A stretch of 12,813 bases of DNA from Candidatus Kaiserbacteria bacterium RIFCSPHIGHO2_02_FULL_54_11b (GTDB lineage Bacteria; Patescibacteriota; Minisyncoccia; Phycocordibacterales; UBA2100): the NCBI GenBank assembly GCA_001781275.1, contig MFLH01000031.1, positions 34,728-47,540 on the forward strand, given 5' to 3'. Numbering within the stretch: the stretch's first letter is position 1; every line of letters starts with the position of its first letter. Below, one piece after another: positions 4,194 to 12,813 of the stretch. A program made the translations under genes and the position numbers. The notes beneath the pieces were generated by a model. It made no database searches. It was given only the letters and a program-made list of their open reading frames with translations, and was not told where the DNA came from.

Positions 4194-4649
4194 TTATAAA
4201 GTTGAGCAAGCTGGATAACCTGACCACCCAGTTGGGACAATGTTACCAACAGTAATACGACACCAACCGGGACCAGAAGATATCAGCCCCTCGACATATG
4301 AAATTACTGTATAACCCACGGTCCTATCACTTGTGTTGTATTTATAATCGTTGGCTCCACCTCCGTAACGGGGATCAGTCGGTAACGCCTCCAAATAAGG
4401 GCTTAGTGTGGTGCCAAAGTTTCGTACAAAGTTTGAGGTCGGAGTGCTAGGATACTGTGAATTCTCGTCAACGTAGAGTTCTAATGCGACTTGCAAGGAT
4501 CGCATATCAGCCAGACGCCGAGCATCACGAGCCTTGATACGAGCACCATTGAGTGAGGCGAGCACGACCGAAGAGAGCATGCCAATAATCGCGATAACGA
4601 CCAAAAGTTCGATGAGTGTAAAACCTCTTTGGATATGTTTCTTTTTCAT
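4194..4649 (-). CDS. Type IV pilin-like / pseudopilin protein
   Basis: 151 residues with a class III (prepilin) signal: a short basic leader MKKKHIQRG, predicted cleavage between G9 and F10, FTLIE with the required glutamate at +5, and a hydrophobic helix (LLVVIAIIGMLSSVVLASL). A prepilin peptidase should process it, after which it would assemble into a pilus or pseudopilus in the membrane. After the helix come ARIKARDARRLADMRSLQVALELYVDENSQYP and a globular domain with two cysteines near the C-terminus (PGWCRIT and YPACSTL) that could form a disulfide loop, as in many pilins. It starts 10 nt after the small membrane protein gene and probably shares its transcript. It looks more AT-rich by eye than the neighbouring metabolic genes. 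Major pilin, minor pilin and competence pseudopilin cannot be told apart here. Confidence 0.9.
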   Translation of the reverse strand: MKKKHIQRGFTLIELLVVIAIIGMLSSVVLASLNGARIKARDARRLADMRSLQVALELYVDENSQYPSTPTSNFVRNFGTTLSPYLEALPTDPRYGGGANDYKYNTSDRTVGYTVISYVEGLISSGPGWCRITVGNIVPTGWSGYPACSTL

Positions 4650-5467: not shown

Positions 5468-6478
5468 TTATCGAAGTCGCTTCCCTATTTCGAGGACGTG
5501 TTCTATGAGTGTATGCGTATACCCCATCTCATTGTCGTACCATGCCAGGACCTTGACGAGCGTGCCGTCTACAACCCGCGTCATACCCAAATCCGCGATG
5601 GCGCCAAAGGGAAGTCCGAGAATGTCGGAGGAAACGAGCGGCTCATCGGTCACCGCAAAGACCTTCTTCCAGCGGTCGCTTGCCGCCGCGGCCTTGAGCG
5701 CGGCGTTGACTTCCTCGGCGCTCGTCGGCCTTTTCGCAACGAAGGTGATGTCGACGAGCGAGCCGGAGGGCACGGGGACGCGCACCGAGATGCCGTCGAA
5801 CTTTCCTTTGAGCTGCGGATAGGCGAGCGCGGTCGCTTTTGCGGCGCCCGTGGAGGTGGGGACCATGTTCTGTGCCGCTGCTCTCTGCTCCCGCATATCT
5901 TTTGCTTTGCCTCCATCAACAAGACTCTGGCTTGCCGTGTATGCGTGCGTGGTATTGAGTATCGCGCGCTCAATGCCGATTGCCTCATCGAGGATCCCGA
6001 CGAGCGGGCTTGCGGCGTTGGTCGTGCATGAAGCATTTGAGGTGATGGGTCCGCATGAAGCGAATTTTTCTTCGTTGGCACCGATGAGGATGGTCTCCAC
6101 TCCTTCTCCCTTGGCGGGCGCTGTGATAACGACATGCTTTGCTCCCGCGTCGATATGCGTCTTCGCTTTCTCGGATTCGGTAAAGAGGCCGGTGGACTCG
6201 ATAACGATGTCCACCTGCATAGCGCCCCACGGGATTTTTGCGGGCTCCTTTTCAACGGTGAGTGTTACCGTCTTCCCGTCGACGACCAAGTGCCCATTTT
6301 CCACCGCGACTTTTGCGTCGAATCTTCCGTACACCGTGTCGTATTTTAAAAGATACGCGAGATTCTCTGCCGGAGCGAGATCATTGATCGCGACGACCTC
6401 GAGCTCGCTGCGCGCATGCGCCGCCCGGAAGAATCCGCGCCCGATCCTGCCAAACCCATTGATTGCTATTCGTGTCAT
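5468..6478 (-). CDS. gapA: Type I glyceraldehyde-3-phosphate dehydrogenase
   Basis: 336 residues, full length for the family. The Rossmann fold begins INGFGRIGRGFFR, and Asp33 in AINDL is the residue usually associated with NAD rather than NADP. The catalytic cysteine is C151 in SNASCTTN, with the partner histidine H178 in THAYTASQ. Further signatures are PTSTGAAKATALAYPQLKGKFDG, SVRVPVPSGSLVDITF and the C-terminal WYDNEMGYTHTLIEH. The enzyme oxidises and phosphorylates glyceraldehyde-3-phosphate to 1,3-bisphosphoglycerate, linking pentose phosphate products to lower glycolysis. It is the first gene of the metabolic block and diverges from the transposase gene across an 79-bp gap. There is no ribosome binding site; an extended -10 lies 6 nt before the ATG. 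Confidence 0.97.
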   Translation of the reverse strand: MTRIAINGFGRIGRGFFRAAHARSELEVVAINDLAPAENLAYLLKYDTVYGRFDAKVAVENGHLVVDGKTVTLTVEKEPAKIPWGAMQVDIVIESTGLFTESEKAKTHIDAGAKHVVITAPAKGEGVETILIGANEEKFASCGPITSNASCTTNAASPLVGILDEAIGIERAILNTTHAYTASQSLVDGGKAKDMREQRAAAQNMVPTSTGAAKATALAYPQLKGKFDGISVRVPVPSGSLVDITFVAKRPTSAEEVNAALKAAAASDRWKKVFAVTDEPLVSSDILGLPFGAIADLGMTRVVDGTLVKVLAWYDNEMGYTHTLIEHVLEIGKRLR

Positions 6479-6521: not shown

Positions 6522-6530
6522 TGTTAATAT
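6522..6530 (+). promoter_or_regulatory. Candidate extended -10 upstream of the transposase gene
   Basis: Plus-strand TGT-TAATAT (TGn extension; hexamer four of six to TATAAT). A start site about seven bases further on would fall inside the hairpin that precedes the transposase ATG, so the left arm of the hairpin would be only partly transcribed. Support is limited to this sequence match. Confidence 0.25.
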
Positions 6531-6554
6531 GATTGACATCGTAAGTCAATCATA
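6528..6554 (+). repeat. REP-like hairpin, copy 1, immediately before the transposase start
   Basis: A perfect inverted repeat: left arm TATGATTGAC (6528-6537), 7-nt loop ATCGTAA, right arm GTCAATCATA (6545-6554). The transposase ATG begins 4 nt after its end, at 6558. Bases 6534-6553 are identical to 20 bases inside the gene (6701-6720). REP-associated transposases recognise short hairpins beside their own gene, so this is the probable cognate element. It could also hide the start codon in the mRNA or serve as an operator. Confidence 0.8.
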
Positions 6555-6557
6555 CCT

Positions 6558-7214
6558 ATGGAACTCTATCACTGTCTCAATAGAGGGGTAGATAAACGCA
6601 TCATTTTCACTGATAATCGAGATCGTGCACGTTTTGTCCACGACATGTATGAATTCAACGATGTGCGTCCCGCGCTCAACGTCGGGCGATCTTCCATGAG
6701 TGACATCGTAAGTCAATCATTATTGGAGAGGAGGAGGATCGTTCAAATTCATGGGTGGTGCGTGATGGGTAATCACTATCACCTCTTGCTGAGCGAGCTT
6801 CAGGACGGCGGTATATCGTTATTCTTGCGCAAGCTAAACGTTGGTTATGCTCGATACTTCAACGATCGACACAGACGGGTCGGGACGCTTTTTCAGGGAC
6901 GGACGAAAAAGATCCTTATCAACTCAGATGCCCATTTTCTCCATATCCTCCACTACATCCATCTCAACCCTCTAGACTTCCTTAAGGGGTACGAGCGTTG
7001 GCGGGATTTTCGAATCAAGAATTCGAGGACCGCTCTTGGGTATTTGGAACAATATCGTTGGAGCAGCTACTTGGACTACTGCCGCAAGAAGAACTTCCCT
7101 TCAATCATTACAACCGAGCTGTTCGGCGATGTATTCAAAAATTACCCAAAAACGATCGGGTCGTATCTGAAGGATATCGAGCTCGCGCCAATGAGACCTT
7201 ATCTGCTCGAGTAA
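6558..7214 (+). CDS. REP-associated tyrosine transposase (RAYT, Y1/HUH family)
   Basis: 218 residues. N-terminus MELYHCLNRGVDKRIIF matches the RAYT start; MGNHYHLLL (70-78) carries the HUH metal-binding pair H73 and H75. KLNVGYARYFNDRH-RRVGTLFQGR supplies the catalytic tyrosine (Y97 or Y100), followed by HFLHILHYIHLNPLDF and YRWSSYLDY. Such enzymes nick and rejoin single-stranded DNA at small hairpins and are held responsible for REP dispersal. ATG at 6558 is the only sensible start: a stop at 6534 closes the frame upstream, with no other ATG between. Residues 47-54 (MSDIVSQS) are encoded by an in-frame copy of the hairpin repeat. It is the only plus-strand gene here and looks lower in GC than its neighbours, which suits a mobile origin. 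All core motifs are intact, so it may be active. Confidence 0.93.
   Translation: MELYHCLNRGVDKRIIFTDNRDRARFVHDMYEFNDVRPALNVGRSSMSDIVSQSLLERRRIVQIHGWCVMGNHYHLLLSELQDGGISLFLRKLNVGYARYFNDRHRRVGTLFQGRTKKILINSDAHFLHILHYIHLNPLDFLKGYERWRDFRIKNSRTALGYLEQYRWSSYLDYCRKKNFPSIITTELFGDVFKNYPKTIGSYLKDIELAPMRPYLLE
6695..6721 (+). repeat. REP-like hairpin, copy 2, inside the transposase reading frame
   Basis: Left arm CATGAGTGAC, loop ATCGTAA, right arm GTCAATCATT: 24 of 27 positions match copy 1, including an unbroken 20-base identity (6701-6720 with 6534-6553). The stem has one internal mismatch and one at the outer end. Its 27 bases fit the reading frame without a stop and encode the segment between the N-terminal helix and the HUH strand, where this family is variable in length. 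Confidence 0.75.
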
Positions 7215-7223
7215 ATCTGCGAC

Positions 7224-7250
7224 GATGAGTGACTTACGAGGTCGAACATT
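7224..7250 (-). repeat. REP-like hairpin, copy 3, decayed and inverted, just after the transposase stop
   Basis: Read on the minus strand, arms AATGTTCGAC and GTCACTCATC flank the loop CTCGTAA. It matches copy 1 at 21 of 27 positions and shares nine bases of stem (ATGAGTGAC on the plus strand) with copy 2. Three central stem pairs are lost, so it is a poor hairpin. It begins 10 nt after the transposase stop, making the gene flanked by copies in opposite orientation. Confidence 0.55.
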
Positions 7251-7272: not shown

Positions 7273-8124
7273 TTACTTGCAGGCGCCGGGTGTGGCCGCC
7301 AGAGCGCCCGATTTGATGGTCACGCAGAATGCCGCGCCCGTGACCTCATCGTAGAGCGTAATCCCCTTCGGAGCACCCGCCCTGCCTATGGTAAGGGGCT
7401 TTCTGATTTCGGCCTTTCCGACGGTCCAAATATCGCCAGATTCGTTGACTTGGAACTTGTCACCATTGCCAAACGTGAGGAGCGCGGCGGGTGTGGTATC
7501 TCCAATACCAACACGACCAACAGCGGTACCTTGGAGATTCATAGCAAGGACTACGTTTCCATCCCCATTTACGGTACTACCGTCTCCACCAGAAACAAAA
7601 ACGTTTCCACCATAGCCCTGTGGCCCGTCGCCACCAAAGATGCCTACATTACCACCATATGATCCTTGAAATTGAGCGCTAATTCCACCCTTTCCACCGA
7701 CAATTGACACTTCACCTCCTTTTCCTCCTGGTGTGTTGCCACTGAATCCGCCTTGGCCTGCGACAAGCTGAATATTCCCTCCCGTACCGGCGTTATTTAC
7801 ACCCGTACCAGCAAGTGCGGCAAATCCTGAATCTATACGTGCGCGCTCCGACCCACCTACGGAAACTCCTATAGAATCACTTCCTGGATGAAAGAATCCC
7901 GTGTCAGTATCTGTCATCCAAGAAAAACTGGGTGCTGTGGCACTATCATCTGCCTTGCCAAGAAACTGGCCGCTACCGTCCACGGTTTGAGATGATGCCA
8001 GATTCGCATACGTGCCTCCCGATACTATTACCCCGACCGCCCCAATAAGGAGAAGTGTGGCCAGGATACTGATGGCTTTGGAGCCATGCTGAAGCTTTTC
8101 TCTGACTAGTTTTCCGACTTTCAT
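7273..8124 (-). CDS. Membrane-anchored fibre-like protein with glycine-rich repeats
   Basis: 283 residues. A basic N-terminus (MKVGKLVREKLQHG) precedes one hydrophobic helix at about 17-37 (SILATLLLIGAVGVIV), a signal anchor or signal peptide. Then come a phage-fibre-like segment (TDTDTGFFHPGSDSIGVSVGG), a block of GGN/GGD-rich short repeats (about 110-200; GGNIQLVAGQGGFSG, GGEVSIVGGKGG, GGNVFVSGGDG), one RVGIGDTTPAALLTFGNGD unit, and a C-terminal region ending AFCVTIKSGALAATPGACK with two cysteines. The repeat block is clearly homologous to part of the giant protein encoded upstream, so this looks like a short paralogue or spare module carrier. It is probably displayed on the cell surface. 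The precise role is not known to me. It lies downstream of hicA after a 104-bp gap and convergent with the transposase. Confidence 0.85.
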   Translation of the reverse strand: MKVGKLVREKLQHGSKAISILATLLLIGAVGVIVSGGTYANLASSQTVDGSGQFLGKADDSATAPSFSWMTDTDTGFFHPGSDSIGVSVGGSERARIDSGFAALAGTGVNNAGTGGNIQLVAGQGGFSGNTPGGKGGEVSIVGGKGGISAQFQGSYGGNVGIFGGDGPQGYGGNVFVSGGDGSTVNGDGNVVLAMNLQGTAVGRVGIGDTTPAALLTFGNGDKFQVNESGDIWTVGKAEIRKPLTIGRAGAPKGITLYDEVTGAAFCVTIKSGALAATPGACK

Positions 8125-8228: not shown

Positions 8229-8432
8229 TTAAATATCGCCCAAGGAAAGTCCGGCTTGTTTCAAAATCGAGTGCAAGGTGCTTATATGCAAATCGCCCGG
8301 ATGCATCGGCACTGTAACGCGGCGCTTGTCGGCGGCGCGGAAAAATATCCAGTGACTCCCCGCTTGACGGCGAAATACGAAATCGTGCCGCTCAAGCGCT
8401 ACGCACAACTTTCGTGCAGTGACCCCCGCCAT
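8229..8432 (-). CDS. hicA: HicA-type mRNA interferase toxin
   Basis: 67 residues matching the HicA/YcfA double-stranded-RNA-binding-like fold: GVTARKLCVALERHDFVF, then RQAGSHWIFF with the conserved catalytic histidine (H27 in GSH), then a strand TVPMHPGDLHISTLHSILKQAGLS, the family's usual ending. HicA toxins cut mRNA during translation and are held inactive by HicB. The gene starts 3 nt after the hicB stop, so the antitoxin is made first and translation is probably coupled. The pair lies between two fibre-like genes. Length and motifs are complete, so the toxin is probably functional. Confidence 0.92.
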   Translation of the reverse strand: MAGVTARKLCVALERHDFVFRRQAGSHWIFFRAADKRRVTVPMHPGDLHISTLHSILKQAGLSLGDI

Positions 8433-8435
8433 GCG

Positions 8436-8672
8436 CTATGCCGCGGCGACATCCACCTCTATAGTGCCCATGAGGGAAGTGTCTTCTTTAGGAATCTCCT
8501 CTCCATCCGCGGCCATATCTTCGATATACAGCGAAATCGCTTCGCGGGCCATTGCACGCGCCTCTTCCAAATTGGCGCCGTAGGTGACGCAACCAGGAAA
8601 TGTTGGGACGGTAACGGTGTAGCCGCCCGCAGGATCAGGCTCGAATACCAATTTGAATGTCTGTTTTCGCAT
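8436..8672 (-). CDS. hicB: HicB-type antitoxin
   Basis: 78 residues from the ATG at 8672, with the HicB-like core: TFKLVFEPDPAGGYTVTVPTFPGCVTYGANLEEARAMAREAISLYIEDM is spread over residues 5-53, including the GGYTVTVPTFPGC strand pair and the EEARAMAREAI helix. It should bind and neutralise HicA. The protein ends with EVDVAAA right after the core, and I see no C-terminal helix-turn-helix or ribbon-helix-helix, so operator binding as in longer HicB proteins is not evident. An ATG at 8693 would add seven residues. The start at 8672 is preferred because an extended -10 lies between the two and the homologous part begins there. The gene begins 29 nt after the giant fibre gene's stop. Confidence 0.9.
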   Translation of the reverse strand: MRKQTFKLVFEPDPAGGYTVTVPTFPGCVTYGANLEEARAMAREAISLYIEDMAADGEEIPKEDTSLMGTIEVDVAAA

Positions 8673-8678
8673 GGAGAA

Positions 8679-8687
8679 AGTATACCA
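8679..8687 (-). promoter_or_regulatory. Extended -10 promoter element for hicBA (leaderless layout)
   Basis: Minus-strand TGGTATACT (TGn plus TATACT, five of six), then 6 nt (TTCTCC), then the ATG at 8672. It lies in the short gap after the giant gene, so the toxin-antitoxin pair can be transcribed alone. It would place the transcript start at the start codon itself. Confidence 0.5.
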
Positions 8688-8701
8688 TATCACGGCTATT
8701 G

Positions 8702-11700
8702 CTACTCTGCCGGCTCCTCTGATACAACCGGCTCGGTGGGGGGCTCTTCCTCAACCGTTGGCTCTGGCTCCGGTGCCGGCTCTGCCTCCGGTTCAGTAGT
8801 TTGTTCAGTAGCAGTTTCAGTAGCAGATTCTTCCTCAACTACCACCTCTTCCTCTGTCGAGGTTGTAGGTTCTAGGTTATAGGTTGTAGTCGAGTAATCA
8901 CTATCCCCTATCCCCTGTTCGCTATCCCCTGTGCTGGCGGGCTCCGTTTCCTCCGCGCTTGCCGCCAGCTCCTGCTCGCCGCCTTCCGCTACCCCCTCTA
9001 CCGGTTCTACTTCTTCGCTCACCGCAGGCTCGCTTGTGGCGAGCGGCTCTACCAGCACGGGCTCGTCGGTGGAGACCAGCGGCGCGCTCTCCGTCGTACC
9101 TGTCGTACCGGTTGTACCCGTTGTCCCGTTAAGCAAAGCTTGGAGCTCGGCTTTGCCTATGCACACATCCTCCAAACACAGCGTCTTGGCGTGTATTGTC
9201 TCGGCGTGGATGGTGGTGGCGAAGAGGTCTGCAATGCCGTTGCCAGCGCTTGCGAGCCAGGTGGTGATGCGGGCGAACATCTGCGAGAAGAACCGCCCGG
9301 CAAAAGAATCTTCGCTTTGCGGCGTGCTGGTCGCTAATTCCTCGACCTTAAGATTAAGCTCCTGCACGGCCTTGGTAAGCAACGCGCTCATCTGACGGTA
9401 TTTAACGCCGGAGAGTACGCCGTCGCTGTATTGAGCAAGGAGAGGATTTATAGCTTCGACCTCCTCGGCGACAAAGCCAAGGTCGTGCGCTTTGCCGTCC
9501 TTCCAGTCGAACTCTCTGGTCTGCAGTCGCATAAGAGTATCTAAGCCGAGAGACAGATCCACAATATTTTCCTTTTGCGCCGCGAGCGACGTACAGGCAC
9601 CCCAGTATGACTCACCGCTGCCGTCCCAGCAGAGGTCGTGTGTCCCCTCCGTACCGACACCCGACTTGGTAGTGGTCATTAAAAGTTCCCCGTCACCCTC
9701 GATGGTGACTTGAGCGGTGCTGGTCCCCACGCCGCTCGCAGGCGTGGTGTAAAAGACCAGTTTGGTGGGTATGTTAGCGGCGGTATGCGTCGCTTCTGGG
9801 AGCGCGCGAATGGCGGCGGTGGTGGTGCCTGGCGCGGTCAGGTTGGTGTCGTTCGTATCAAAATTAATGCCGCCGATGATATCCGTGTTTACCTGTATGT
9901 TGCCACGCGCTGAGCGGAGCGTTAATTGATTATTTGCCGGCGTATCAATCTCGCCGGCCGCGACGATGACCAAAGACGTCTGCGGGTCGGTCACTCCAAT
10001 GCCGACCTTAGAGGACGTAATGGTCACCGTATCCGTACCGCCCGTCTGGATGCGAATTTCGTCCGCGGCGCTGAAGTAGAGACCGGTGTTGGTGTCGCCG
10101 GTCGTGGAGAGGGCAAGGTTGCCCGCGCCGGAGGCCCCGGCCGGGAGGAGAAGACGGCCGGAGGAGTCAACACGGAAGAGGTCGCCGTTGCCGACGGTAA
10201 GGAGCGCGAGGGGCGAGGCGTCCCCAATCCCGACGTTGCCGAGTGCCGCGCCAGACGAGTCTATGGCGAGCAGTACGTTGCCATCACCGACGCTACCGTC
10301 TCCACCAACTATGTATATACTTCCACCCGAACCTTGGTTTGCAATGCCACCTGAAATATTTACATTACCAGCAAAGTTACCTGATACTATGCCACTAGAG
10401 CCAGCTCTACCTCCAAAAATAGAGACGGCACCACCGTCTCCACCTATAGATGCTGAACTAAAGCCACCTATTCCTCCGACAAGTTGAATATTCCCGCCCA
10501 CGGTGCCTTGGCCCCCAGAAGCTCCTGTACCACCATAAACTGCAAATGCTGTTGCCGGACCAGTTGCCCCTTGGACGGAAAGCGTTGCGAACGGCGAAGT
10601 AGTTCCCACCCCGACGTTGCCGCCCACAGGATTGAAGACGAGGTTGCCCGCGACAGTTCCGCCGGTAATCAACGCTTGTATGGAGGAGTAGGTATTGCCC
10701 GTTCCGGCGCCCTGGCCTATCGCTACCGCAGAGCCCACGCTCCCCGCGGCCCAGTTGCTGTTTGTTACGAGCAGTGTAGAAGGGTCCGCAGAATTGGCTC
10801 CCAGAATCTGCAATTTGGAACTTAGGTCTCCTGGCGTCGCTGTCCCAATGCCGACGTTGCTCGCCGTGGAGACAAAGAGTGTCGAGGTGGCAAGCAGGGT
10901 GTTCGTACCGTTGTAGTACGGGAACTGCCCTGCCGTGCCGGTGATTCCTGTGATTGCCGAAGTGCCGTTGCCTTGCAAAAGCCCCGTGAGGGTCGTCGCG
11001 CCGGTGCCCCCCCGCGCCACGGTGAGCGTGCCGGTCGTGCCCGCGACGATGGGGAGCCCCGTCGCGTTGGTGAGCACCGCCGAGGAGGGCGTGCCGAGCG
11101 CGGGAGTAACGAGGGTGGGCGAGGTGGCAAACACCAGATTGCCCGTGCCGGTTGTGCCCGAGATAGAGGTGAGGAGGTTGGCCGCCGTGAGGACGTTGGT
11201 GCCAGCGACGAGGTTGGAGGAGGCGTCGGTGGCGACGAGGCGCGATGCGGTGAGGCCGGAGAAGTTGATGGTGCCCGACGAGGTGATGCCCGTGAGTGCT
11301 GTGAGCGTACCCGTAATCTCCGCGTTGCCGTTGACCTGCAAACCCGTGGAGGAGGCGGTGCCCACGACATCGAGCGCGGTCGCGGGGGCGGTTTTCCCAA
11401 TCCCGACGTTGCCGGCGGTTGTGATTGTAAGCTTCTCGGTTGGGGTTGCTCCTGCGGCGGTAAAGAAGCCGAGGTCGGCATAATTACCCGATGTGGTCTG
11501 GCGAGATTTGATGCTTGCGGTGCGGGCGAGAGAACCCGCATTGTTGGGGTCGAAGTGGAGCGCGACGCCTGTATTGACGGACGCACCGTTGGGATTTGTG
11601 AGAACCAGCGCGTCGGTAACGGCACCTGCTGAACTAACTGTCACCTCAAGTTTCGCCTGCGGAACCGTATCGTTGATACCGACGTTGCCGCTCGTCGCGA

Positions 11701-12813
11701 GGAAGATGGAGGAAGTCGCAAGCAGGGTGTTGGTGCCGTTGTAGTACGGGAACTGACCTGCCGTGCCGGTGATGCCGGTGATTGCTCCCGTCCCATTGCC
11801 TTGGAGGAGACCGGTGAGTGTTGAAGCGCCAGTGCCGCCGTTGGCGACCGAGAGGTCGGTCGTGAGTGTGAGGTCGTCGATAAATGCGGTCGCCCAACGC
11901 ACGGCGGTGGAACCGAGGTCGTAGGTGCTGTCTGTGATAGGGAGGACATCGGAACGGGCCGTGATGACCGCGTCGGCGGTGCCGAGGTAGAGAAGGCCCG
12001 CGCTCCAATCGCGCCAGATGTAATTCGTTGCGGCGTCGTTCGTATCCTGCACGATAAAGTCGGCGTCGGGGGTGTCGATGGTCGTCGCGCCCGTGATATC
12101 CGCGCCGCCGCCGGAGACGACGAGGCCGGAGCCGGAGCTGGGCGACGCGATGGTGACGGTGCCAGTGGAATCAATGGTCAGTCGCTGCGTGACGGTACCC
12201 GCGGAGCTTGCGGTCCAAAAACTTATGTTGCCCGGGATGATGCCCGTGCCGATCGTACCTTCGGTATCGAATTTGATGCGCGAGCTTTCGGTGAAGGCTG
12301 TGCCGTCATGCGCATAGCCGCTGAATGTCAGGATGTCGTCGCCCGAGGTTATTAAAGACGGTGCGGCGGTGCTGGTGCGGGCTTTCCGGACAAATATGTT
12401 TTGCCCGGTAGTATTCGATGTAGAGCGCTCAAGATAGAGCACGTTCGCGCTCGGGTCGAACTGAAATGTGTTTGTCGTATCGCCTCCCAAAAAGTCGCCC
12501 GTGGCGACGGCGTTCACTGCCGTGGGGCTCCCTGAAGTAATACCGCCCGTGGTCGCGGTGATGGCTCCGCCCACGAGCGTGGTGTAGGTGGCCGCGCCGA
12601 GGACTGGCGTGACGAGGGTGGGAGAGGTGGCGAAGACGAGTGCTCCGCTTCCGGTGTCGTCGGTGACTGCAGTATCAAGGTTTGCGCTTGAGGGTGTCGC
12701 GAGGAAGGTGGCGACCCCCGCGCCGAGGCCGGAGATGCCGGTCGAGACGGGCAAGCCCGTCGCGTTGGTGAGCACCGCCGAGGAGGGCGTGCCGAGCGCG
12801 GGGGTAACGAGCG
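8702..12813 (-). CDS. Giant repetitive fibre/adhesin-like protein with S74 chaperone domain (5' end outside window)
   Basis: The frame is open from the right edge to a stop at 8702 (at least 1369 residues; the GTG at 12775 is merely internal). Most of it is phage-tail-fibre-like beta repeats: LVTPALGTPSSAVLTNATGLP, GGTGATTLTGLLQGNGT, GQFPYYNGTNTLLATS and NVGIG-x-T-x-P-type units, plus a glycine-rich GGNIQLVGG block (about 10230-10520). Near the C-terminus is an S74 intramolecular chaperone domain (about 9330-9600): SLAAQKENIVDLSLGLDTLM, REFDWKDG, LGFVAEEVEAINPLL. Its Ser (9587-9589) and Lys (9572-9574) lie five residues apart, as in the family's S-K dyad. Then follow a helix, HAKTLCLEDVCIGKAELQALL, a GTT repeat, and an acidic Glu/Pro/Thr tail. 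S74 domains trimerise fibres and cleave themselves off just before the serine. Inferred role: a trimeric surface fibre, possibly for host-cell contact. Confidence 0.88.
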   Translation of the reverse strand, partial: LVTPALGTPSSAVLTNATGLPVSTGISGLGAGVATFLATPSSANLDTAVTDDTGSGALVFATSPTLVTPVLGAATYTTLVGGAITATTGGITSGSPTAVNAVATGDFLGGDTTNTFQFDPSANVLYLERSTSNTTGQNIFVRKARTSTAAPSLITSGDDILTFSGYAHDGTAFTESSRIKFDTEGTIGTGIIPGNISFWTASSAGTVTQRLTIDSTGTVTIASPSSGSGLVVSGGGADITGATTIDTPDADFIVQDTNDAATNYIWRDWSAGLLYLGTADAVITARSDVLPITDSTYDLGSTAVRWATAFIDDLTLTTDLSVANGGTGASTLTGLLQGNGTGAITGITGTAGQFPYYNGTNTLLATSSIFLATSGNVGINDTVPQAKLEVTVSSAGAVTDALVLTNPNGASVNTGVALHFDPNNAGSLARTASIKSRQTTSGNYADLGFFTAAGATPTEKLTITTAGNVGIGKTAPATALDVVGTASSTGLQVNGNAEITGTLTALTGITSSGTINFSGLTASRLVATDASSNLVAGTNVLTAANLLTSISGTTGTGNLVFATSPTLVTPALGTPSSAVLTNATGLPIVAGTTGTLTVARGGTGATTLTGLLQGNGTSAITGITGTAGQFPYYNGTNTLLATSTLFVSTASNVGIGTATPGDLSSKLQILGANSADPSTLLVTNSNWAAGSVGSAVAIGQGAGTGNTYSSIQALITGGTVAGNLVFNPVGGNVGVGTTSPFATLSVQGATGPATAFAVYGGTGASGGQGTVGGNIQLVGGIGGFSSASIGGDGGAVSIFGGRAGSSGIVSGNFAGNVNISGGIANQGSGGSIYIVGGDGSVGDGNVLLAIDSSGAALGNVGIGDASPLALLTVGNGDLFRVDSSGRLLLPAGASGAGNLALSTTGDTNTGLYFSAADEIRIQTGGTDTVTITSSKVGIGVTDPQTSLVIVAAGEIDTPANNQLTLRSARGNIQVNTDIIGGINFDTNDTNLTAPGTTTAAIRALPEATHTAANIPTKLVFYTTPASGVGTSTAQVTIEGDGELLMTTTKSGVGTEGTHDLCWDGSGESYWGACTSLAAQKENIVDLSLGLDTLMRLQTREFDWKDGKAHDLGFVAEEVEAINPLLAQYSDGVLSGVKYRQMSALLTKAVQELNLKVEELATSTPQSEDSFAGRFFSQMFARITTWLASAGNGIADLFATTIHAETIHAKTLCLEDVCIGKAELQALLNGTTGTTGTTGTTESAPLVSTDEPVLVEPLATSEPAVSEEVEPVEGVAEGGEQELAASAEETEPASTGDSEQGIGDSDYSTTTYNLEPTTSTEEEVVVEEESATETATEQTTEPEAEPAPEPEPTVEEEPPTEPVVSEEPAE
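8861..8935. repeat. Two heptamer-period repeat tracts in the acidic tail of the giant gene
   Basis: On the plus strand 8861-8888 is four consecutive 7-mers (GGTTGTA, GGTTCTA, GGTTATA, GGTTGTA). Positions 8901-8935 form five more in register (CTATCCC twice, CTGTTCG, CTATCCC, CTGTGCT). Seven is not a multiple of three, so each unit is read in a different frame and the protein shows no seven-base-derived motif; unit changes other than threes would shift the frame. Confidence 0.75.
10893..11008. repeat. Fibre repeat module, copy A
   Basis: About 116 bp encoding GGTGATTLTGLLQGNGTSAITGITG and GQFPYYNGTNTLLA in part. It is strongly similar along its whole length to 11721-11836, with differences mainly at third codon positions, so it is an in-frame duplicated module of the giant fibre gene. 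Confidence 0.8.
11058..11104. repeat. 47-bp exact repeat, copy A
   Basis: Identical to 12756-12802 at a distance of 1698 bp, a multiple of three. It encodes part of ALGTPSSAVLTNATGLP in the giant fibre protein. After one mismatch the identity continues for eight more bases. Confidence 0.85.
11721..11836. repeat. Fibre repeat module, copy B
   Basis: Partner of 10893-11008. It encodes the same protein segment (GGTGASTLTGLLQGNGTGAITG and GQFPYYNGTNTLLA) with scattered silent changes. Confidence 0.8.
12756..12802. repeat. 47-bp exact repeat, copy B
   Basis: Identical to 11058-11104 and located at the right edge of the window. More copies of the module may lie beyond, in the missing 5' part of the giant gene. 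Confidence 0.85.

Follow-up and report, generated by a model that had tools for sequence, protein, structure and literature searches.

A stretch of 12,813 nucleotides from contig MFLH01000031.1 of Candidatus Kaiserbacteria bacterium RIFCSPHIGHO2_02_FULL_54_11b (called the window in what follows) carries the gene for a predicted Y1/HUH transposase and three copies of a short DNA hairpin, placed before, inside and after that gene. The predicted enzyme resembles the RAYTs, tyrosine transposases associated with repetitive extragenic palindromic (REP) sequences. The locus (Table 1) was picked out in a first-pass annotation made from the letters of the window alone; here it is compared with homologous loci and with hairpins scattered through related genomes.

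Table 1. Features of the transposase locus, with positions counted from the first letter of the window
Feature	Position	Strand	Remarks
Hairpin copy 1, upstream	6528..6554	+	core 25-mer 6529-6553; ends 3 bases 5' of the start codon
Y1/HUH (RAYT-like) transposase gene, 218 codons	6558..7214	+	predicted from Pfam, NCBIfam and AlphaFold2 model
Hairpin copy 2, internal, in frame	6696..6720	+	codons 47-55: M47-S54 and part of L55
HuH motif N72-H73-Y74-H75	6771..6782	+	N72, H73 and H75 invariant in 36 sequences
Y133 of YIHLNP, presumed catalytic tyrosine	6954..6956	+	invariant in 36 sequences; role by analogy with TnpAREP
Hairpin copy 3, downstream, chimeric	7225..7249	-	arm comparison, folding
gap (GAPDH) gene, divergent neighbour	5468..6478	-	

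The transposase gene and its three hairpins

The three hairpins are real and lie where the first-pass annotation put them; its count of a 27-base motif occurring three times within 723 bp is borne out by the coordinates and by the identity of copies 2 and 3 to copy 1 (24/25 and 21/25 bases, respectively). Copy 1 has 10-bp arms and the loop ATCGTAA or, read alternatively, an 11-position stem with a CGT loop and one A.A mismatch. Searching the window with the 25-mer at up to three mismatches returned copies 1 and 2 only, and 200 dinucleotide shuffles of the window gave no match. Folded as single-stranded DNA, copy 1 reaches -7.8 kcal/mol (z -6.4) and copy 2 reaches -4.8 kcal/mol (z -3.5); copy 3 scarcely folds (-0.1 kcal/mol, z +1.2). 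The transposase was at first described as interrupted by its hairpin; copy 2 is in frame, the 218-codon frame is open, and nothing is interrupted.

Copy 3, inverted relative to copy 1, was described as decayed and inverted, which fits its strand, its lower identity and its poor fold, but its changes do not look random. The left arm, ATGTTCGACCT, agrees in 11/11 bases with that of the sister family at locus L237, and the right arm is one base from the window family and likewise one base from the L054 family. Random triple changes of the own arm gave a match to any other family's arm in 697 of 200,000 trials, a test picked after the sequence had been seen. The internal copy at L025 also combines one new and one old arm. 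Of the 45 loci having a mismatched stem, 8 have one mismatch common to two copies, which points to copying.

The gene product is predicted to be a RAYT-like HUH/Y1 transposase acting on single-stranded DNA. In an alignment of 36 sequences N72, H73, H75, Y133 and N137 are invariant and P138 nearly so; Pfam Y1_Tnp and NCBIfam NF047646 (REP_Tyr_transpos) are each matched by 35 of the 36 at E<=1e-3. The AlphaFold2 model built on the 36-row alignment has a mean predicted local distance difference test score (pLDDT) of 86.9, and its sole stretch of at least three residues with pLDDT below 50 is the hairpin-encoded loop 45-53, which the model places between helix 20-32 and strand 62-69, ahead of the HuH motif. 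Among 350,542 chains searched with Foldseek the top PDB match by E-value was 4ER8, a RAYT bound to its REP hairpin (E 7.8e-7, template modelling scores 0.49/0.62), followed by the TnpA proteins of IS608 and ISDra2. The motifs NHYH, F112-Q113 and YIHLNP are of the type listed for subclass 2.1 of the TnpA-Y1 proteins, an assignment made by setting them against the table of PMC6006769 and not with that paper's own profiles.

Hairpin families in related genomes

Homologues were found in 45 of the 60 genomes searched, the window's own included. Once genes near contig ends, frames of fewer than 190 codons and duplicates were left out, 167 loci reduced to 123 distinct genes. Upstream and downstream hairpins, counted as matching with no more than 4 differences in 21 inner bases, match at 89 of the 123; in the cross-locus control, with the upstream hairpin of one gene set against the downstream hairpin of another, 163 of 3643 pairs do (4.5%). 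An internal palindrome matching a flank is present in 75/123 (control 171/3102, 5.5%). Nearly all of these (72/75) lie at nucleotides 141-192, before the HuH motif, in frame 0 (54 copies), frame 1 (17) or frame 2 (1), and 16-29 residues ahead of HuH in the 69 genes where the motif was located; the other three are at nucleotide 58 (L165), 499 (L040) and 685 (L062). The proportion with an internal copy falls with identity to the window protein: 54/67 at 50% or more, 14/23 at 43-50%, 7/20 at 36-43% and 0/13 below. In the close clade the internal peptide is often of the D-L-R-N or D-F-V-N type, set by the hairpin and its orientation. The window's own gene is counted with an internal copy but, its downstream copy being chimeric and poorly folding, misses the flanking-pair count; in its closest homologue (L236, genome G065) the window's family occupies each of the three places, and the internal palindrome is perfect.

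Hairpin arms are alike within one locus and differ between loci, tracking the protein tree. Protein and hairpin identity correlate with a Mantel r of 0.67 (n=89, none of 999 permutations as high), or 0.46 for the outer arms alone. Within the close clade the loop and upper stem are conserved and the outer arms variable; more distant enzymes go with loops other than CGT.

Scattered copies were sought with a covariance model built from 33 CGT-loop hairpins; CCG/CGG, GCC, CGC/GCG and other loops were left out, so it detects the CGT class only. In a scan of 52 genomes of the genus, run with stricter filters and with 150 candidates scored per genome, it matched at E<=0.05 in 38, the window's own included. 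At E<=0.5, G060 and G016 have 43 and 42 matches, all families together. G060 has three close-clade enzymes and three families of their own, with 5, 10 and 7 further copies elsewhere; 26 of its 39 examined hairpins lie away from the three enzyme loci, and 18 of the 22 scattered cognate copies are identical over 25 nucleotides. Open reading frames (ORFs) hold 14 of these 22 and, in G016, 16 of 39 hairpins (enzyme locus included), so genes are not avoided; we claim no preference for them.

The window's genome (G000; 741,590 bases, 83% complete) has four transposase homologues, the window's own (P0001) and three others 33-38% identical to it. Besides the window's gene, divergent Y1 genes lie on contigs C9, C53 and C7 (L018, L019 and L020). 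The genes on C9 and C53 are flanked by matching hairpins whose stems are of other types; within three mismatches, the arms of the C9 gene occur at that gene only. This genome also has six copies of a second, sister family (ATGTTGGGTTT; ATGTTGGGTTTCGTAAACCCAACAT), three exact and three with changes, in frame in uvrC, atpG, tsaD and recR and twice in uvrB (L213, L217, L221, L227, L230). In other genomes the second family flanks the homologue L145 and occurs with L165. A search of G000 with the 15-base core of the window's hairpin at up to three mismatches gave 16 matches (6 in the backward control), 13 of them outside the window, none of which by eye has the arms of the window's family; one more model match, on C52 (E 0.46), looks like chance.

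A close-clade transposase adjoins gap in 10 of the 52 genomes of the genus (gap itself was found in 44), and by our count these ten genes have eight different arm sets. Simple vertical orthology, which first seemed likely, is weakened by the tree and by the arms: the ten genes are clustered without forming one clade (5 label changes, at least 3 of them forced; 0/500 shuffles as low), and the arms go with protein clade, not with place. On this sequence evidence the gap site seems to have been reused, or units to have relocated, and we make no case for simple orthology. In G032 a lone hairpin (L091) with the arms of that genome's own enzyme stands upstream of gap, a place taken in other genomes by the entire gene.

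Elsewhere in the window are a 283-residue neighbour (7273-8124, minus strand) that has no Pfam match and is rich in glycine repeats resembling those of a 1357-residue protein further on, a HicA/HicB-type toxin-antitoxin pair (8229-8693, minus strand) beside a long S74 peptidase-domain protein (8702-12775), and a prepilin-like protein (4194-4649, minus strand) recognised by eye from its GFTLIELLVV start.

Hairpins inside protein genes

By best NCBIfam match, proteins with hairpins inside their genes include AtpG, UvrA, UvrB, UvrC, RecR, TsaD, MnmA, MiaA, MurC, MurD, LysS, ValS, AlaS, PheT, a PgmG-like mutase and GuaA. These names come from 20 hand-picked frames, one with no match (L227, start misplaced; a separate comparison identifies it as recR) and one with a weak match (L277); several matches are below the curated cut-off, in some cases on account of a frame truncated by the edge of the locus.

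Ortholog alignments of 30 loci each, out of 48-51 matching genomes (atpG, recR, tsaD) or 45 (uvrC), contain filled and empty alleles for all four genes. One loop can hold different hairpin families in different genomes. RecR has a hairpin in 4 of 30 orthologues, in one frame and with four different arms, and a decayed one in L358. Near residue 85 of TsaD, hairpins fall within four alignment columns in G000, G017 and G008, with that of G060 at the G000 site. In AtpG the hairpin is at the same column in G000 and G060 and in another frame in G016. Compared with unfilled orthologues, loops with a single hairpin (14 cases) differ in net length by -4 to +7 residues, and loops with two by about +12 to +13. 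L402 (+12), listed with one hairpin, has another hairpin-like peptide next to it and was by eye put with the doubles; L397 (+7) was put with the singles but may have been a double that decayed. The comparison is a rough one, as long loops also occur in some atpG orthologues that have no CGT hairpin. The range among singles does not support clean insertion at a constant length; insertion with trimming, or writing-over of resident DNA, fits the variable length better.

For 62 hairpins in ORFs of at least 200 residues, some from overlapping loci of one genome, the counts in frames 0, 1 and 2 are 29, 30 and 3. Frame 2 is stop-free in 76% of hairpins in the ACG orientation and in 9% in the CGT orientation, yet it is rare.

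Double hairpins stand back to back in one protein loop at L333 (atpG), L209/L380 (tsaD), L276 (mnmA), and L273 and L298 (uvrA), and resemble REP dimers or REPINs (REP doublets forming hairpins). Palindromes of other stem types (GAGG.., AAGG..) lie inside tsaD (L369, L382, L378) and atpG (L309), so enzymes of other clades may do likewise. At the C-terminus of TsaD the hairpin encodes NRDFVNPDTL (L209 1002-2216, compared with L221) where a hairpin-free orthologue has the similar NKDFADPATL, which looks like the remains of an old hairpin.

Explanations and comparison with known systems

We think it probable, at roughly three chances in four, that the window holds a RAYT-kind transposase together with the hairpins that are its likely targets for recognition and movement: one precedes the gene, one is within it and a half-changed one follows. 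Movement by the enzyme is what we infer from three patterns: most homologues have their own hairpin family, the copies at a locus match, and further copies in relatives are often in frame in housekeeping genes. The enzyme would bind the folded hairpin on single-stranded DNA through the CGT loop and upper stem, cut beside it and join a copy to a new place. Insertions in frame in surface loops would survive, and the internal copy may be a tolerated insertion in the disordered loop ahead of the HuH motif. As the preference of the enzyme drifts, copies at its locus would be brought into line arm by arm, leaving chimeras such as 7225-7249.

The first-pass proposal of a RAYT-like Y1 enzyme with cognate hairpins is thus supported by the motifs, by the predicted fold and by the 89 flanked homologues. 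Its author would have given it up had flanking hairpins not been conserved among homologues and copies been absent from the genome and relatives; the flanks are conserved, and relatives have scattered copies (38/52 genomes, and the families of G060). The genome search it called for turned out mixed, positive for relatives and negative for the window's own arms in its own genome.

Several results weigh against the interpretation. In the window's genome (83% complete) its own arms were found nowhere but at the gene; the six scattered copies there belong to the second family, and no enzyme matching that family was found in the assembly. We saw no near-identical second copy of 6528-7250, no clean empty site and no transposition event. 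No matched flanking pair was counted for 34 of the 123 homologues, the window's gene among them, and no matched internal copy for 48. Matched flanking pairs have the loop direct in 38 of 89. Filled protein loops do not show the constant gain of 8 or 9 residues that plain insertion would give. The window protein itself scores 22.6 bits against Y1_Tnp, below the gathering cut-off of 23, and 39.5 bits against NF047646, far below the equivalog cut-off of 80.

The whole of 6528-7250 might instead be a small insertion sequence, with the transposase and its two flanking hairpins moving as an IS200-like unit whose ends are the hairpins. Hairpins do bracket most homologues, and the gap-neighbour genes are not one clade, several of them sharing arms with sister genes elsewhere, as if units had moved or been replaced. 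We nevertheless consider this unlikely: homologues within one genome are divergent, none of the eight window proteins scanned is a tnpB-like neighbour, two-thirds of the G060 hairpins (26/39) stand away from enzyme loci, and the window's downstream hairpin does not fold. Neither a near-identical copy nor a clean empty site came to light to bear out movement of 6528-7250 as a whole.

A variant of the transposase reading would have the enzymes of this clade write 25-nucleotide hairpins over resident DNA more than insert them, existing hairpins at the same codons having their arms replaced one at a time by those of the current enzyme. We put this forward as a doubtful proposal. If it is true, loops of housekeeping proteins gain peptides of about nine residues encoded by hairpins while their length hardly changes on balance, and the copy in the enzyme's own gene would be a self-written mark that follows its specificity.

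Concerted change could also come about through gene conversion and selection for pairing, with no transposition and another role for the enzyme. The chimeric copies in the window and at L025, the stem mismatches shared by two copies (8/45 loci) and the small length change at filled loops all suit such a process. Taken alone it is improbable, because it leaves without explanation the scattered cognate families of G060, one per enzyme, and families at new codons and frames, as in atpG of G016.

Hairpins acting in RNA, as control elements of the start site or messenger that are alike because the protein binds its own message, are very unlikely. The upstream hairpin does stop three bases before the ATG and covers the ribosome-binding region; against this, the centre of the matched upstream hairpin lies anywhere between -2 and -124, counted from the start used, and the same families recur at unrelated places, both between genes and within atpG, uvrC, tsaD, recR and others. 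That the palindromes arose by chance in a GC-rich genome has a negligible probability: palindromes of 7 or 8 bp, taken singly, are common at these loci, but the empty result of the 200 shuffles and within-locus matching far above the cross-locus control rule them out.

If the transposase reading holds, these tiny genomes offer a natural series of differing enzyme-hairpin pairs with no GTAG tag, from whose co-variation recognition rules could be read, and in-frame palindromes of protein genes become tied to a candidate mover that bears the same insert. A caution also follows: odd nine-residue loops in proteins of these bacteria, AtpG, RecR, TsaD and tRNA ligases among them, can be mobile DNA.

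Published RAYT/TnpAREP systems resemble the one described here in having a Y1/HUH enzyme, palindromes of the enzyme's own family on either side of its gene, a separate family for each enzyme, enzyme-palindrome co-variation and scattered copies (REPtrons; PMC2817692, PMC6006769). They differ in copy number, usually above 100 REPs per genome against 5-10 scattered copies per family in G060, and in their two flanking palindromes, which are described as always inverted to each other (PMC2817692), whereas only 51 of 89 pairs are inverted here. They also have a GT[AG]G foot. In 86 hairpin contexts from G060, G016 and G000, enzyme loci included, GT[AG]G and CGTC tags are practically absent (GTAG 0/86, GTGG 1/86, CGTC 0/86), so the label REP needs care.

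Subclass 2.1, with the motifs NH[YF]H, FQ and Y[IV]HLNP, agrees with the window protein, but in the account of Quentin et al. (PMC6006769) no REP-like sequences were found for it, whereas hairpins are present here; that paper's main text mentions neither Patescibacteria nor Parcubacteria by those words. Subclass 2.4 likewise has REPs in frame inside the tnpAREP gene besides the outer ones, generally between HuH and Y and not before HuH as here; they are GT[AG]G-tagged, those here untagged, and they come mainly from Cyanobacteria and Bacteroidetes (PMC6006769). Subclass 2.6 and class 3 share with our loci flanking palindromes that do not follow the GT[AG]G consensus, atypical and weaker ones in Bacteroidetes (2.6) and in Planctomycetes, Acidobacteria and Proteobacteria (3), but their motifs are others (YIH[QN]NP; Y-EQ) (PMC6006769).

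The intragenic GTAG/CGTC repeats and the Rickettsia palindromic elements are also in frame, in uvrA, uvrB, other repair and tRNA synthetase genes, and also form dimers (PMC3733652); unlike the GTAG/CGTC repeats, the hairpins here have no such tags, and the gene of their likely cognate enzyme bears an in-frame copy. IS200/IS605 elements (IS608, ISDra2) share the Y1 fold and hairpins near both gene ends; what sets the present loci apart is the hairpin within the gene, the scattered lone hairpins and the lack of near-identical copies among those seen.

For other groups, REPs in frame, REPs within transposase genes and untagged REPs have each been published. The first-pass view that this REP/RAYT pair was undescribed stands in part: REPs in frame inside a transposase gene are known (PMC6006769), and the present combination (in frame, intragenic, untagged and with an enzyme type reported to be REP-less) was not found in print by a search with subscription papers and preprints outside its range. 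Judged by its sequences, the system appears to work like RAYT/REP without being canonical: it is untagged, has pairs that are not always inverted, few copies, and an enzyme of a type reported as REP-less.
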